From contig JAPLFR010000016.1 in NCBI GenBank assembly GCA_026390575.1, forward strand, positions 598,737 through 662,736: a stretch of DNA of 64,000 bases, read 5' to 3'. The notes below the pieces were generated by a model, which was not told the DNA's origin, ran no database searches, and saw only the letters and a program-made list of their open reading frames with translations. The stretch's first letter is position 1; every line of letters begins with the position of its first letter. The stretch is from Ignavibacteriales bacterium (GTDB taxonomy: Bacteria; Bacteroidota; Ignavibacteria; UBA10030). The translations under genes were made by a program, and so were the position numbers. This document shows, piece by piece, positions 12,953-20,164 of this stretch.

Positions 12953-13227
12953 TTGTAAATGGTTTGACAGAGATAGGATTCATCAAGAAGTGAACACTGC
13001 TTGACATTCACCCGAAAAATCTCGAACATTCATTCAGAACTATAACACTTCCTATCACAATATCTAGTAATATTTTTGTTGCATATAAAAATTCAGTTTC
13101 GAAATTTTATCACCTGAATGGCTTTTTCGACAAACAAGGAGCGGTATTTTAGCACTTGATACGCAACACATAAAAATTCTGGGTTAATTATTATTATAGA
13201 GTGTCGTTTATGAAGAAGGGGTGTGCT

Positions 13228-15630
13228 ATGAAACGAAGAATGGTTCTCGGTATATTATGGGCGGGAATAATCGCCGCATCAGTTTCGTACTCCCAACAGG
13301 GAATATATGTTGAGCAGCTTCAATCTATCGATGCCGTTAAAAATTCTATTGATCTTTGTGCGGTTTCATTAAAAACGAACATGCTCGGAGTTATTTCGTC
13401 GGGAGGTGGTGTCAAACTCTATGATATTCCAGCACTCAAAGAGAAAACGATACTTACCTCCGTACCGTTACATGTGAACACCTTGTCATTTTCCGGTTCG
13501 GGACAAACCCTGGTACTCGGAGCTACGGATGGAAATGCATACGTGTTCAATATAAATGCTCCGACCGATCTCAAAAAATTATCTCCTCATTCACTCGGAA
13601 TCACATCGATAGCATTTCTTGGTGAGAATTGGTTGTTTTCCACCGGCGTTGATAAAAAGGTGATTGTTACGGATGTGGTGAATGGAACCGAACTAGGATC
13701 CTTACCGGATTTTCAAGAAGATGTAACCGCAATAGCTGTTCATCCAGGCGCAAAGCATTTTACAGTTGGTTTGTCTTCCGGTAAGATTCAAGTGTATGCC
13801 GTTGCAAAATTAGAGTTGCAGAAAACCTTAGTCACCGGTAAAGATAAAATTTCAACGATCTGTTATAGTGCTGATGGAAAATTTCTTGCCGCTGGCGCTA
13901 TCGATGGGACTGTCTACCTTTGGGATACACAAACAAGCGATTTAAAACTAAAGTATACTCAGAGAGGTTTGATCAGCTCCGTTGCATTCGATCCGAAATC
14001 ACGCTGGCTTATTTCTACAGCAGCAGACAGTTCGCTCAAATTCTATGATCTTACAACGCTCTCTGCTGTTAAGACAATGATTGACCGTGATGGTTGTACT
14101 ACGTATGCAGCATTCTTGAACGATGAAATACTTCTCACCAGCACAAGTACTGGTAAATTGAAGAGCTGGAAAATTACGTCAATTCCGCCTGATACGACAA
14201 ATCCGAGGATTGTTCTGGAGCATACGGCCGATACGACTATCGCTAAAGTGTATGGCCGAGAGTATGAAATCCATGGCGTAGTGTTTGATGATTCAGAGTT
14301 GAAAGAAGCCATGTTCAACGGAAAGCCGCTTATGCTGTCAGCGCTCACAACAAATGACACAGTCAAGATTCCGGCAGGAATGAAAGCCTTCAAGCACTTC
14401 AGCACGGTATTGAAATTGGATTCGGTAGGTATGATTCCATTTGAAATCAAAGTTGCAGACAACGCGAACCATTCCGTGAGCGAGAGAAGATTTGTTCAAC
14501 GCCTTTCAAATGATCAGGCGGTGGAAGTCGAATCTCCGCTTATTAATTCAGAAACAGAATCGATGTCTGTTCCGGTAAAATTCAAGACATGGTTCGATGT
14601 CGCCTCATACTCGATCTCAGTAAACATGGTTGATATTGTAAATGGTCAAATACCAGAATTCAAAGTAGCGGGAGATGTCATTGCAGATGAAGTGCCGTTG
14701 GTAGCGGGATACAATCAGATTCAACTTTCTATTATGAGTAAAAGCGGCGATAAATTTTCCAAAACAATCGGTATTAATAGAAAAGCATCTGTTCTAGGAG
14801 ATGCTCCAATCGTTTCTTCCGGTGCAAAAAAAGAACGTGTTAAAGGTTCCGGCCCGCAACATTGGGCGGTGGTAGTAGGTGTTTCAGAATATAAAAATCC
14901 AGGCATTCCAAGTTTAAAATATGCCGACAAGGATGCTGAAGCGCTTGCAGATTTCCTTCGCCGACCGGAAGGCGGTGGATATGATTCTGATCATATGCAA
15001 GTACTCCTCAATAAAGATGCAACACTCACAAATTTGAAGGCTGCACTCATTACCTTTTTGAACCAGGCGATAGATATGGACCTGGTTATTATCTATTTCG
15101 CCGGGCACGGTGCACCAGAACCGGCGAAGCCTTCTAATACGTATCTACTCACCTATGACACTGATCCAAACTCTCTTGGAACATCGGCTTTTCCTATGTG
15201 GGATATAGAAACTGTTTTAAAGCGGTACATCAGCGCAAAGCGTGTCGTCGTATTCAGCGATGCCTGCCATAGTGGTGCTATTAGTGTGAACTTTACCACG
15301 CGCGGCTTGGCAGATTCGGAACCTAATTTGGTGAACCAATATCTCGCAGATCTATCGAAAACAAAAGAAGGTATTGTAATATTTACTGCGAGTGCCGCAG
15401 GCGAAGTATCGCAGGAATTCCCGGACATGGGTCATGGCGCATTCACGTTTTATCTGCTCGAAGGTTTAGAAGGAAAAGCAGACTTTAACAACGATTACAC
15501 GGTAACTATTAATGAATTGATGCAGTACGTAGAAGAGCAAGTGAAGCGCAAAACGCACGGCGCTCAGAATCCGACTCGCAGTCAGACTGAATACGACAAA
15601 GAGCTGACTATTTCGACTGTCCCTCATTGA
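13228..15630 (+). CDS. Exported WD40-repeat protein with C-terminal caspase (peptidase C14) domain
   Basis: An 800-residue protein with a signal peptide (MKRRMVLGILWAGIIAASVSYSQ). It continues with seven or so WD40 repeats over about residues 30-330 (several ending in VYLWD- or LKFYD-like strands), an all-beta Ig-like linker to about 540, and a caspase-fold domain from about 550 (HWAVVVGVSEY) to 790. The catalytic dyad is present: His627 in IIYFAGHGAPEP and Cys680 in VFSDACHSGAI. The caspase domain is therefore predicted to be an active clan CD cysteine protease acting in the periplasm or at the cell surface. I chose the ATG at 13228, preceded by GAAGGGG, over the upstream GTG at 13201 because it gives a clean signal peptide. 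It is the first gene of an operon with a DUF4384 protein and a membrane adenylate cyclase. Confidence 0.9.
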   Translation: MKRRMVLGILWAGIIAASVSYSQQGIYVEQLQSIDAVKNSIDLCAVSLKTNMLGVISSGGGVKLYDIPALKEKTILTSVPLHVNTLSFSGSGQTLVLGATDGNAYVFNINAPTDLKKLSPHSLGITSIAFLGENWLFSTGVDKKVIVTDVVNGTELGSLPDFQEDVTAIAVHPGAKHFTVGLSSGKIQVYAVAKLELQKTLVTGKDKISTICYSADGKFLAAGAIDGTVYLWDTQTSDLKLKYTQRGLISSVAFDPKSRWLISTAADSSLKFYDLTTLSAVKTMIDRDGCTTYAAFLNDEILLTSTSTGKLKSWKITSIPPDTTNPRIVLEHTADTTIAKVYGREYEIHGVVFDDSELKEAMFNGKPLMLSALTTNDTVKIPAGMKAFKHFSTVLKLDSVGMIPFEIKVADNANHSVSERRFVQRLSNDQAVEVESPLINSETESMSVPVKFKTWFDVASYSISVNMVDIVNGQIPEFKVAGDVIADEVPLVAGYNQIQLSIMSKSGDKFSKTIGINRKASVLGDAPIVSSGAKKERVKGSGPQHWAVVVGVSEYKNPGIPSLKYADKDAEALADFLRRPEGGGYDSDHMQVLLNKDATLTNLKAALITFLNQAIDMDLVIIYFAGHGAPEPAKPSNTYLLTYDTDPNSLGTSAFPMWDIETVLKRYISAKRVVVFSDACHSGAISVNFTTRGLADSEPNLVNQYLADLSKTKEGIVIFTASAAGEVSQEFPDMGHGAFTFYLLEGLEGKADFNNDYTVTINELMQYVEEQVKRKTHGAQNPTRSQTEYDKELTISTVPH

Positions 15631-15654
15631 AAATTTGAAGAAAGGATCTTACAT

Positions 15655-16350
15655 ATGCGATACTTTATTCTTCTTGCAGTTTTGTTAGGTTGTTTCGCAG
15701 TTGGATTTCGATCCAGTGAACAACCGGCGCCAGCTGTACCCCTCATTCAACAAACCGAAGCCAATATAGGGTTTGAATGGGCGTTTGGCGCACTTGTCGG
15801 TAAAAGCAAGACCATGGTCCCCATTACACACGACACAACACTGAAAAGCGGGGAAGAAATAAAAATGATGGTGAAGCTGACAAAGGATTGTTTTGTTTAT
15901 TTGGTTCACCAGGATTCAAAAGGCGAGATAGAATTACTCTTTCCTTCCAAGATACAACAGTTCAAAACCGACTATGCAGTTAATAAAAATTACTACATTC
16001 CCAAAGGCCGCGGTTGGAGTGCCTTTGATAAAAATACCGGCAAAGAAGTTTTCTTTCTTATCGCTTCCACAGAGCGTTTACTTGATCTGGAAATAAAACT
16101 TGGTAATTATTTTTCTGCTGATACATCGAAGAAATTAACAATGGCGAGTGATATTGTATCGGAAATCCGCAGTGTGAGGAAGCGCTACTCAATATTTTCG
16201 ACGCTTGCCGAAAAGCCAGTGACAATCGGAGGCAACATACGGGGAACAGAAAAAGTGGAAGGTGCACGACGTCCCGATGTGGCGGACATTGCTACACATA
16301 TAACCGCGAACAACTTCTACAGCAAAACCATCACCATTGACCACCAGTAA
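15655..16350 (+). CDS. DUF4384-domain protein, probable lipoprotein
   Basis: A 231-residue exported protein whose N-terminus (FILLAVLLGCFAVGF) contains a plausible lipobox LLGC. A DUF4384 domain follows over about residues 40-135: LKSGEEIKMMVKLTKDCFVYLVHQDSKG and ELLFPS..., a beta-sandwich usually found fused or next to caspase or kinase domains. AGGA precedes the ATG at a suitable distance. It lies 24 bases after the caspase gene, and its 3' end overlaps the cyclase frame by 14 bases if the latter starts at 16337. In other proteins this domain is thought to be a sensor or scaffold; its ligand is unknown. Here it probably works with the caspase outside the cytoplasmic membrane. Confidence 0.8.
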   Translation: MRYFILLAVLLGCFAVGFRSSEQPAPAVPLIQQTEANIGFEWAFGALVGKSKTMVPITHDTTLKSGEEIKMMVKLTKDCFVYLVHQDSKGEIELLFPSKIQQFKTDYAVNKNYYIPKGRGWSAFDKNTGKEVFFLIASTERLLDLEIKLGNYFSADTSKKLTMASDIVSEIRSVRKRYSIFSTLAEKPVTIGGNIRGTEKVEGARRPDVADIATHITANNFYSKTITIDHQ

Positions 16351-18319
16351 AAAGCGACCCCTGAGGGACACGATGTTTATCATCGTGTCTTCTCTCGTGT
16401 TTGGACATCTTATCTTTTGGTTACTGCCGAATGTCTTTGAAACATGGAACTCACAGGCGTTCGACCAGATGTTTGTACTTCGAACGAAATACTTTTTGTC
16501 CCGCATTCCGTACGACAATACAATTATTCACGTCAGTGAAACAGACAGTAGTATTCAAGTGCTGTCGGGTGGCACATATATTTCACGCCGCCAGTATGGA
16601 CAAATCATAAAGAATATTGGCGATATGCAGGCTGCTGCCCAAATTTGGGATTATATTGTTCTTGGACTAAAACCGACAGAAGAAGATTCGTTCTACATTG
16701 CTTGTATCAAATCGGCGGGAAATGTTTATTATGGAATGATGCTCGATTTCAAAGACAAGCCTCTTATGCAAAAACCACCACGTCCTGCGTTTTATTGGGA
16801 ATATCTTTCAAAGACCAAATGGAAAGTAAAAGTAGACGGTGATATCAGCAGAATGTACTTCGGTGAGAATCCTTTAATGACATTCAAAGAAGTCGCATTT
16901 GCATCTCGGGGATTAGGCTACCTGACCTACCGCCATGATCCCGATGGTGTGATTCGCCGTGCCCCCCTCTTAATAAGATATGAAGATGGATTTTATCCAA
17001 GTTTTCCATTTCGTACAATTTGCGATTACCTGCATGTAAAACCGGAACAGGTTATCCTGCAACCGGGGAAAAGCATTACGCTCACAGGTGCTTTCCGCCC
17101 CGGTCAACATCCCCATGACATAATTATACCAGTTGATGATCGATGTAATATTATCGTGAATTATGTCGGTCCATGGGGTACAATGATAGACTATAAGATG
17201 GTTCAGATTTATAATGTGTCTCAAGATCAGGATATGATGGAATACGATTGGAAGCCATTATTTAAAGATAAGATTGTAGTAGTAAATTCGGCATCGACCG
17301 GTGCTTCAGACATCCAAAACGTGCCGGGAGATAACGCGTATCCCTTAGGTGGATTGCATGCAAATGTGATGCACACAATCCTGACTGAAAATTTCTTGAA
17401 GGAAGCGAATCCCATTGAAAAAATAGGTGTTGAAATTCTTCTTCTGGTAATCATTGGTGTTTTAGCAGTAAAATTCTCTTCACGCGGTCTCTGGGTCGGC
17501 GCTGTACTTTTGCTTATAGGATATATTATACTTGTCACAACGGCATTTCTGTATGGCAATCTTATCGTTAATTTGGTGCGGCCTATTCTTATCACGGGCA
17601 CAGCTGTATTTTGTGTGCTTGTCTATCGATTTATCAATGAAGAACGGGAAAAAGAAGCAACACAAAGATCGTTTGAAGCATATTTGCCGCCATCGGTAGT
17701 CAAACGCCAGTTGGCACATCCGGAATCTATCTTCGAGGTTCAGAAGAAAGAACTTACGATCATGTTTACCGATATTAAGAGTTTTACAACCTATTCTTCT
17801 ACAATGACGCCGGATCAAATTCAAAATTTTCTTGCTGAATATTTTGATGCAATGGTTCAAATAGTTTTCAAATATGAAGGCACCGTAGACAAATACATCG
17901 GAGATGGGCTCATGGTGTTCTTCGGCGCTCCCGAACCGCAGTTGGACCATGCCGTACGCGCTGTAAAAGCAGGAATCGAGATGCAGATAAAATGCCGCGA
18001 GTTGAAAGAGAAGTGGGTAAAGGAAGGATTGTTTCCACTAAAAATTCGTGTCGGCATCAATACGGGCGAGGTTGTGGTAGGAAATATGGGCACGCGGAAA
18101 AAACTTGCGTACACCGTTCTTGGCTCCGATGTCAACCTCGCCAATCGCCTCGAATCAAATGCGCCTGTTGAGGGGATTATGATATCCCGGCGTACCTATG
18201 AATTCGTAAAAGATTTTATACCAACAGTTCCGCACGAGCCTGTTCTCGTCAAAGGACTTGATACGCCCATTGAAGTGTATACTGTTCCGGTGGATGAAGT
18301 AGTTCCACCAAACGCTTGA
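16337..18319 (+). CDS. CHASE2-domain class III adenylate cyclase
   Basis: Membrane receptor cyclase that makes cAMP from ATP. One N-terminal transmembrane helix is followed by an extracytoplasmic CHASE2 sensor (about residues 35-340) and three clustered helices at about 355-430. A cytoplasmic class III cyclase domain runs from about 465 to 645. Catalytic residues are complete: metal-binding D479 (FTDIKSF) and D523 (KYIGDG), adenine-selecting K519 and D598 (LGSDVN), and the N600/R604 transition-state pair. That combination favours ATP over GTP. The start may be the TTG at 16337 or the ATG at 16373, which has GAGGG in front. It is the third gene of the caspase operon and the only visible route from its envelope proteins to a cytoplasmic signal. 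Confidence 0.92.
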   Translation: MTTSKKRPLRDTMFIIVSSLVFGHLIFWLLPNVFETWNSQAFDQMFVLRTKYFLSRIPYDNTIIHVSETDSSIQVLSGGTYISRRQYGQIIKNIGDMQAAAQIWDYIVLGLKPTEEDSFYIACIKSAGNVYYGMMLDFKDKPLMQKPPRPAFYWEYLSKTKWKVKVDGDISRMYFGENPLMTFKEVAFASRGLGYLTYRHDPDGVIRRAPLLIRYEDGFYPSFPFRTICDYLHVKPEQVILQPGKSITLTGAFRPGQHPHDIIIPVDDRCNIIVNYVGPWGTMIDYKMVQIYNVSQDQDMMEYDWKPLFKDKIVVVNSASTGASDIQNVPGDNAYPLGGLHANVMHTILTENFLKEANPIEKIGVEILLLVIIGVLAVKFSSRGLWVGAVLLLIGYIILVTTAFLYGNLIVNLVRPILITGTAVFCVLVYRFINEEREKEATQRSFEAYLPPSVVKRQLAHPESIFEVQKKELTIMFTDIKSFTTYSSTMTPDQIQNFLAEYFDAMVQIVFKYEGTVDKYIGDGLMVFFGAPEPQLDHAVRAVKAGIEMQIKCRELKEKWVKEGLFPLKIRVGINTGEVVVGNMGTRKKLAYTVLGSDVNLANRLESNAPVEGIMISRRTYEFVKDFIPTVPHEPVLVKGLDTPIEVYTVPVDEVVPPNA

Positions 18320-18391
18320 TTTTCCCACTGCCATTCTTCATATTGATTCAGTAGATGTATGTGTTCTGCGCATTTCATCGATCTCCTAAAA

Positions 18392-19270
18392 ATGAACAAT
18401 CCAAAACTTCATATCAAGGACAAATACTGGTCGGCGGAAGACGGCTTCCGTTACTGTGAAACAATTGCTCGCAGCCACTATGAAAATTTTCCTGTTGCCT
18501 CGCGCTTTGTTTCAAAAGAAATACGTAAGTATGTCTGGACAATTTACGCCTTTGCCCGCATTGCAGACGATTATGCCGATGAGCCTGGTTTTACTCTCGC
18601 CGAACGAATGGATAACTTAAATCAATGGGAGCAGGAGCTTAATGAATGTTATAACGGCAATCCTACGCACCGCGTGTTTGCTGCACTTGCTGAAACGGTG
18701 GAACGATTTCAAATTCCGCGTGAACTTTTCCAGAATCTTCTTTCTGCCTTCCGCGCAGATGTAACCGTGAACCGTTATGAAACGTATGAAGATGTACTTG
18801 CATATTGCCGCAACTCCGCCAATCCTATCGGAAGATTGCTCTTGCTGCTGTTCAATTATCGCAGTGAAACAATGATGCAGCTTTCAGATTCAATATGCAC
18901 AGCATTACAATTGACAAATTTTTGGCAGGATATTTCGGTGGATTTACAGAAAGATCGTATTTACCTTCCCTTAGAAGAATTGACAGAATTTGAATATTCC
19001 GAACAAGATTTATTCAATCAAACGGTGGATGATCGCTTTCGTAATTTAGTGGCATTTCAAGTACGGCGCACAGCTGATCTTTTTGTTGAAGGAAAACCGC
19101 TCTTACCTATGGTTGGCAAGGATTTATCGATGGAATTGAAACTTACGTGGAACGGCGGCATGAAAATTTTACAAAAGATTCATAGTCAGAAGTATGACGT
19201 ACTGACGAAACGCCCGGCACTTTCGGCGTTAGACAAACTAAGTATTCTCTTTCATTCATTTTTATCGTAA
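18392..19270 (+). CDS. hpnC: Squalene synthase HpnC (hydroxysqualene synthase)
   Basis: Trans-isoprenyl diphosphate synthase fold. In the three-gene bacterial squalene route HpnD makes presqualene diphosphate from two farnesyl diphosphates and HpnC converts it to hydroxysqualene. The protein has the first aspartate-rich motif ARIADDYADE, the second motif LTNFWQDISVDLQKDRIYLP, and the N-terminal HYENFPVAS characteristic of HpnC. I prefer the ATG at 18392 (292 residues) to the ATG at 18359 because the first eleven residues of the longer form do not look conserved; neither start has a strong ribosome site. hpnD follows nine bases later. The third enzyme (HpnE) and a squalene-hopene cyclase are not in the window. 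Confidence 0.88.
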   Translation: MNNPKLHIKDKYWSAEDGFRYCETIARSHYENFPVASRFVSKEIRKYVWTIYAFARIADDYADEPGFTLAERMDNLNQWEQELNECYNGNPTHRVFAALAETVERFQIPRELFQNLLSAFRADVTVNRYETYEDVLAYCRNSANPIGRLLLLLFNYRSETMMQLSDSICTALQLTNFWQDISVDLQKDRIYLPLEELTEFEYSEQDLFNQTVDDRFRNLVAFQVRRTADLFVEGKPLLPMVGKDLSMELKLTWNGGMKILQKIHSQKYDVLTKRPALSALDKLSILFHSFLS

Positions 19271-19279
19271 CTTAAACAC

Positions 19280-20164
19280 GTGCAAACAGCAACCTCCGTC
19301 ATACCGGATTTCTCGCAGAATCGGAAGAGTAGTTTCTATTACTCCTTCCTCATTTTACCGCGCCCGAAACGCGACGCCATTGAAACCATTTATGCCTTTT
19401 GCCGATTCACCGACGACATTGTAGATGAAGCGGGAGACGAGAAAGAAAAGTATGCGCTGCTCCTGCAGTGGACAGAAGAGTTGCGGCGCTCGCTCTACGG
19501 AATCTCGCACTATTCACTGCTGAACAAACTTTCTGCCACTATCCAGCGATTCCATATTCCTATTGAACATTTTTATGAGTTGATTAAAGGAATGGAAATG
19601 GATTTGTTAAACAAGCGCTATGGTACGTTCTCCGAATTAGAACAATACTGCTACCGCGCTGCTTCGACGGTGGGATTGATTTGTGCGGAAGTATTTGGTT
19701 ATAAGAACGAGAAAACGAAGCAGTATGCCATCAACCTTGGTATTGCATTACAGTTAACAAATATATTGCGGGATATAAAATCTGACGCTAAACGCGGACG
19801 TATATATTTGCCGCTTGAAGATTTGAGAAAGTTCGATTATTCCGAAGAGGATTTATTGAACCTTACATACAACGAACGATTTATCGAGCTGATGAAGTTT
19901 GAGTGTGAACGCGCTCATGAATATTTCCACCGCGCGAAGGCATGCCTCGCCGAAGAAGACAAACCGCTTTTCACTGCCGCTCGCACCATGGGGAATATCT
20001 ATTATTTGCTTCTTCTCAGAATTGAGCGTGCACAGTATGATGTGTTTTCCAAGCGCATTCGATTATCATCACCGCTTAAGATTCTCGTCGCGATGGTTCT
20101 GCAGCTGCGGAAAAAGTTTCCAAAAAACTTTCACCGTTATGTGCACACGGAACTGCCTGCATAA
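19280..20164 (+). CDS. hpnD: Presqualene diphosphate synthase HpnD
   Basis: A 294-residue member of the squalene/phytoene synthase family. It condenses two farnesyl diphosphates to presqualene diphosphate. First Asp-rich motif FTDDIVDE, second motif LTNILRDIKSDAKRGRIYLP. The start is GTG at 19280; no ATG is available before the conserved YYSFLILPRPKRDA segment. It is paired with hpnC at nine-base spacing, so the pair is one operon, possibly reading through from the cyclase gene. The homologue could in principle act as a phytoene synthase, but the tandem HpnC/HpnD arrangement favours squalene. Confidence 0.88.
   Translation: MQTATSVIPDFSQNRKSSFYYSFLILPRPKRDAIETIYAFCRFTDDIVDEAGDEKEKYALLLQWTEELRRSLYGISHYSLLNKLSATIQRFHIPIEHFYELIKGMEMDLLNKRYGTFSELEQYCYRAASTVGLICAEVFGYKNEKTKQYAINLGIALQLTNILRDIKSDAKRGRIYLPLEDLRKFDYSEEDLLNLTYNERFIELMKFECERAHEYFHRAKACLAEEDKPLFTAARTMGNIYYLLLLRIERAQYDVFSKRIRLSSPLKILVAMVLQLRKKFPKNFHRYVHTELPA

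Follow-up and report, generated by a model that had tools for sequence, protein, structure and literature searches.

What might a WD40-caspase, a DUF4384 protein and a membrane-bound adenylate cyclase be doing together in one operon? The question is raised by a locus in a 64,000-nucleotide stretch of an Ignavibacteriales genome (3.82 Mb in 16 contigs); we refer to this whole stretch as the window. With a probability of about 0.5, we read the three genes as one module that would carry a signal from the envelope to the cytoplasm. The features concerned are listed below.

13228..15630, plus strand: WD40-caspase, predicted to be exported (Pfam, ortholog alignment; alternative start GTG at 13201), with a signal-peptide-like N-terminus (aa 1-23), a WD40 propeller (aa ~30-320), an Ig-like region (aa 321-535) and Peptidase_C14 (aa 545-792)
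15106..15108, plus strand: codon of the catalytic caspase residue His627, invariant in nine orthologs
15265..15267, plus strand: codon of the catalytic caspase residue Cys680 (SDACHSG), invariant in nine orthologs
15301..15303, plus strand: codon of caspase Arg692 in T-R-G, after the catalytic Cys, in a low-confidence loop; speculative candidate for a self-processing site
15655..16350, plus strand: DUF4384 protein of 231 aa with a hydrophobic N-terminus, probably exported (Pfam, ortholog alignment)
16225..16269, plus strand: DUF4384 residues 191-205, a low-confidence loop with GN[IV]R (R196); speculative candidate for a cleavage or binding motif
16337..16350, plus strand: 14-base overlap with the TTG start of the cyclase gene, kept in 5 of 7 orthologous operons measured
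16337..18319, plus strand: CHASE2-adenylate cyclase receptor, predicted to make cAMP (Pfam, hydropathy, residue alignment), with TM1 (aa ~11-34), a predicted extracytoplasmic CHASE2 domain (~35-350), further TMs (~357-434) and a class III cyclase domain (470-648)
18359..20164, plus strand: hpnC and hpnD (squalene/hopanoid synthesis), directly downstream of the trio and outside the conserved core

A first-pass annotation had described three tightly packed genes, and each open reading frame was found where it had been placed, with a 24-base gap between the first and second genes and a 14-base overlap between the second and third. The cyclase start inside this overlap is a TTG, and TTG stood at the aligned place in six of seven other orthologs inspected; the 14-base overlap with its TTG start was seen in both families of the order. 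The conserved C-terminal TI[DE]H of the DUF4384 protein may account for part of this recurrence. A promoter and terminator scan at the operon gave signals no higher than the shuffled background.

The first-pass annotation had made its proposal depend on finding the same gene order in other genomes, and the order was kept far beyond chance, also at deep divergence in the class and in Nitrospirota. A class-wide search recovered a DUF4384 ortholog in nine genera of one taxonomic order, six from the window's family and three from a second one; each of the nine had the caspase gene upstream and the cyclase gene downstream, with 37-64% identity. The second family had the trio in the same order and different flanking genes. 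Among 32 genomes of the window's family (most genomes compared being MAGs), all three genes were present in 21, two in one and none in 10. The DUF4384 gene and the operon-type cyclase occurred in the same 22 genomes, 21 of which had the orthologous caspase. Because these genes were present together or missing together in this way, the trio appears to have been gained or lost as a unit; the 10 genomes without it still held other CHASE2-cyclases. The genome that kept two genes (G165, locus L147 5590-8767) had the DUF4384 and cyclase genes but no caspase in the interval up to the next upstream gene, and it offers a natural test case for the contribution of the caspase.

A search of MAG records returned 28 loci with an orthologous caspase followed by a CHASE2 gene on the same strand, many of them from the genomes already in the family count. 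In the class sample, we counted eight same-strand caspase-CHASE2 neighbours against about 0.05 expected, the eight being relatives and hence not independent, and the expected counts for such neighbours ignoring relatedness. Outside the orthologs, the class yielded one same-strand pair against 0.16 expected, which at this sample size was not significant. The majority of caspases in the class lacked a CHASE2 neighbour.

Downstream of the trio, both hpnC and hpnD scored over the NCBIfam cut-off, and they begin 39 bases after the cyclase gene. The pair lies beside the trio in most operons of the window's family, which suggests a longer unit tied to squalene/hopanoid synthesis. In the second family, the trio is kept and hpnC-hpnD is not adjacent to it; because the pair is common in one family and absent beside the trio in the other, we regard the trio as the core. 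The continuation of the block into membrane lipid genes would also suit genes that are merely co-regulated for envelope maintenance, the caspase being a periplasmic processing or quality-control protease and the cyclase reporting the state of the envelope alone, with no direct coupling. Related loci that combine caspases with DUF4384, CsgG, SH3, papain and TPR envelope genes fit this explanation too. We nevertheless consider it unlikely, since the second family keeps the trio without adjacent hpnC-hpnD, and since a caspase gene beside CHASE2 is seen again in other phyla, also where the output domain differs.

The first gene matched Peptidase_C14 (4.6e-22) as well as WD40 repeats in Pfam, and its product combines a caspase domain with a His-Cys dyad, as members of the Peptidase_C14 family do. 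The dyad had been called intact, and H627/C680 was indeed present and unchanged across the nine orthologs; both dyad motifs were retained in every one of the 40 caspase domains examined at orthologous loci, and the catalytic His and Cys also in the distant caspases of deep relatives. Export, likewise proposed from the outset, is predicted from a signal-peptide-like N-terminus that was found in 9 of 9 orthologs. In the nine-ortholog alignment, D569 and D678, which we take to be the equivalents of metacaspase S1-pocket residues, were also invariant. Metacaspases cleave after Arg or Lys, and from its sequence the caspase is predicted to be an Arg/Lys-directed protease; the sole solved relative found by sequence was metacaspase-4 (E 0.003). 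AlphaFold and Foldseek gave a clear seven-bladed propeller for the WD40 part, and geometry was taken from the propeller only, the caspase part of the model being mostly below pLDDT 70. Identity to the window protein was 65-80% in the caspase domain versus 20-37% in the propeller, the pattern to be expected of a conserved enzyme that carries a variable part for recognition.

The second gene product matched DUF4384 at 1.2e-15, with 57.7 bits against a Pfam gathering score of 27. It had been taken for a probable lipoprotein, an identification that we abandoned: Cys13 is missing at that place in most orthologs, where an ordinary signal-peptide-like N-terminus replaces it, and the site makes a poor lipobox, with an unconserved Cys and an unusual L at -2. 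The motif GN[IV]R was invariant, R196 being present in 31 of 31 distinct DUF4384 orthologs. It sits in a loop left unstructured by AlphaFold, and the T-R-G of the caspase, just past the catalytic Cys, lies in a similar loop; the low confidence of these loops may merely reflect a shallow alignment. Because metacaspases cut after Arg or Lys, we speculate that R196 and Arg692 are candidate cut sites. A structure search with the DUF4384 fold gave no match (best E 0.13), and a sequence search found no solved relative.

The third gene matched CHASE2 (4.6e-32) and Guanylate_cyc (1.4e-30) in Pfam. By Pfam and hydropathy, its product has the layout of a CHASE2 receptor: an N-terminal TM, an extracytoplasmic CHASE2 domain, more TMs and then an output domain. 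Catalytic residues described earlier as complete were all there (D479, D523, K519, T593, N600 and R604) and invariant in nine orthologs, comprising the two metal Asp, the transition-state Asn/Arg and the adenine-specifying Lys plus Asp/Thr of a class III adenylate cyclase. The K519/T593 pair matches the Lys/Thr signature of class IIIb adenylate cyclases, and on this basis we infer that the product is probably cAMP. The closest solved cyclase domain by sequence was Pseudomonas aeruginosa CyaB (PDB 3r5g, 5.9e-42). The source genome encodes five cNMP-binding proteins, two of them of Crp size; no cAMP regulator adjoined the operon.

PADLOC matched PycC models and a caspase model at the locus, as might be expected if the trio were a Pycsar-type anti-phage defence with a caspase effector. 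However, the PycC matches were limited to the class III cyclase domain, the caspase has a predicted signal peptide, the neighbouring genes are housekeeping genes, and a Pycsar effector was absent from the operon and its neighbours. We give this explanation almost no credence. As a candidate defence system, the locus was rejected on generic domain matches that lacked the pairing of a cyclase with a cyclic-nucleotide effector gene.

Further from the window, another family of the class repeats the gene order of WD40-caspase, DUF4384-like protein and CHASE2-cyclase, with 22-27% identity (L156, with the WD40 part split across two frames), and a further family has a TPR-caspase, an LPP20-DUF4384 protein and a CHASE2-cyclase, again in the same order (L234). 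At two loci (L143, L144), an additional caspase that lacks WD40 precedes an additional CHASE2-cyclase. At L024 (36-11667), a DUF4384-like protein and a CHASE2-cyclase occur without a caspase in a run of OmpA/TPR/SPOR genes. In Rokubacteria (L214), caspase and CHASE2-cyclase genes overlap by 4 bases; in Acidobacteria (L193, L196), the caspase gene is convergent with a FecR-like plus CHASE2-cyclase pair on the opposite strand.

Among about 88 caspase loci inspected in Nitrospirota, four adjoined CHASE2 (L286, L300, L314, L332) against an expectation of about 0.2, a figure to be taken as a guide only, as it rests on a generous assumption, the loci were those ranked highest by E-value and two genomes are possibly related. 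L314 holds a complete run of DUF4384, WD40-caspase and CHASE2-cyclase. At L213 (2885-9890) and L332 (1409-6560), the CHASE2 receptor beside the WD40-caspase carries a sigma-54 activator and no cyclase, and L213 additionally has an LPP20-DUF4384 gene. The proteins at L286 (3535-8566) and L300 (2198-7254) are CHASE2-only, with no known output domain, and their genes are divergent from the caspase gene; the L286 caspase shows a weak C-terminal DUF4384 match. We also observed one gene run (L236, 312-5890) encoding a CHASE2-only protein, a papain-type protease that weakly matches DUF4384, and an Ig-caspase, as well as clusters of at least two caspase genes without a cyclase (L148, 4692-8318; L155, 1-8253; L319, 2357-10489), those at L155 and L319 including DUF4384 genes.

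In a tree of the CHASE2 region, which has long branches for L193, L213 and L214, the operon orthologs, L156, L024 and Nitrospirota L213 formed one supported clade, and L234 and L143/L144 fell in another. Because caspase-linked receptors occur in more than one clade, the pairing would be old or would have arisen more than once. The linkage across distant bacteria points to control of an intracellular signal with the help of a caspase located outside the cytoplasm.

Across these loci, the constant parts are those predicted to lie on the outer side (caspase, CHASE2 and usually DUF4384), and the changing part is the cytoplasmic output. Because the output domain varies while caspase and CHASE2 stay, we place the caspase and the DUF4384 protein at the receptor's input, where, most simply, they would feed the CHASE2 domain. 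The direction could also be the reverse: CHASE2 would sense stress, cAMP would increase operon expression, and the exported caspase would be the effector, cleaving proteins of the envelope and possibly killing the cell. In favour of this, the best-known role of caspases is that of executioner, the genome encodes Crp-type proteins, and the sigma-54 activator that replaces the cyclase at L213 and L332 would suit expression control as well. No binding site or regulator could be tied to the operon promoter, however, and the extracytoplasmic parts accompany CHASE2 and not a particular output, so we judge the reverse direction decidedly improbable.

The envelope-to-cytoplasm module thus remains our preferred reading, and it builds on what the sequences show: the genes and their domains, residues that are intact, a linkage that is conserved, and output domains exchanged in relatives. 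Its account of export, proteolysis, substrate, stimulus, signalling direction and cAMP product is predicted from these. The WD40-caspase and the DUF4384 protein would act outside the cytoplasm and set the state of CHASE2, and this state would pass through the membrane helices to the class III cyclase and so to cAMP, probably read by Crp-type regulators encoded elsewhere in the genome. The fast-evolving propeller would likely be the recognition part and the strongly conserved caspase domain the enzymatic switch, which would most probably cut DUF4384 or CHASE2 after an Arg or Lys residue. G165 and L024, which have DUF4384 or a DUF4384-like protein with a cyclase and no caspase, count against the model; given these loci, the caspase would not always be needed. 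The first-pass idea, a protease or scaffold in the envelope with a cyclase receptor coupled to it, therefore stands as a gene association, with its order conserved and its dyad invariant, but without the lipoprotein.

A literature search for a caspase-CHASE2-cyclase pathway found, among the papers covered, no description of the trio, which we rate as a variant among CHASE2 receptors with an envelope partner. In relatives, the receptor gene adjoins the genes of exported partners (DUF4384 and WD40-caspase), as in a CHASE2 operon. CHASE2 histidine kinases with exported FecR/LysM partners have been described, for example in the Burkholderia BiofilmReg operon, and these share with the trio a CHASE2 transmembrane receptor beside an exported partner and a variable cytoplasmic part; unlike the trio, the BiofilmReg type has a histidine kinase and response regulator as output and lacks caspase and DUF4384 (PMC5192318). 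The CHASE2 adenylate/guanylate cyclases CyaD1/CyaD2/CyaK of Sinorhizobium act downstream of an outer-membrane protein, NsrA, with Clr as a Crp-family reader, much as in our model, whereas NsrA is a beta-barrel and neither a protease nor DUF4384 is described there (PMC13001267). Trichodesmium erythraeum has a known fusion of a caspase-type domain to CHASE2 (PMC3501461, PMC2853523); it is one protein with a predicted cytoplasmic caspase and no cyclase, whereas the caspase of the trio is encoded by a separate gene and predicted to lie on the outer side. DUF4384 and WD40 are known companions of prokaryotic caspase homologs, which show the same domain pairings and His-Cys dyad (PMC7475262, PMC3501461), but the trio encodes DUF4384 as a protein of its own and has a CHASE2 receptor gene as the partner. 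The match to P. aeruginosa CyaB covers residues 466-650 of the trio cyclase only, with CHASE2 outside it.

To our knowledge, a function has been assigned to only a minority of bacterial caspase homologs, and inputs are known for few CHASE2 receptors. A conserved set of three genes that brings the two together provides a direct, testable handle on both questions, and the exchanged output in Nitrospirota is a reason to seek the receptor input among envelope proteins. It is possible, and we put it forward tentatively, that these loci represent a widespread, undescribed transmembrane signalling class in which an exported caspase, with DUF4384 as substrate or adaptor, switches CHASE2 receptors with interchangeable outputs (cAMP cyclase, sigma-54 activator). 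If so, such bacterial caspases would be extracytoplasmic signalling proteases, not death proteases.
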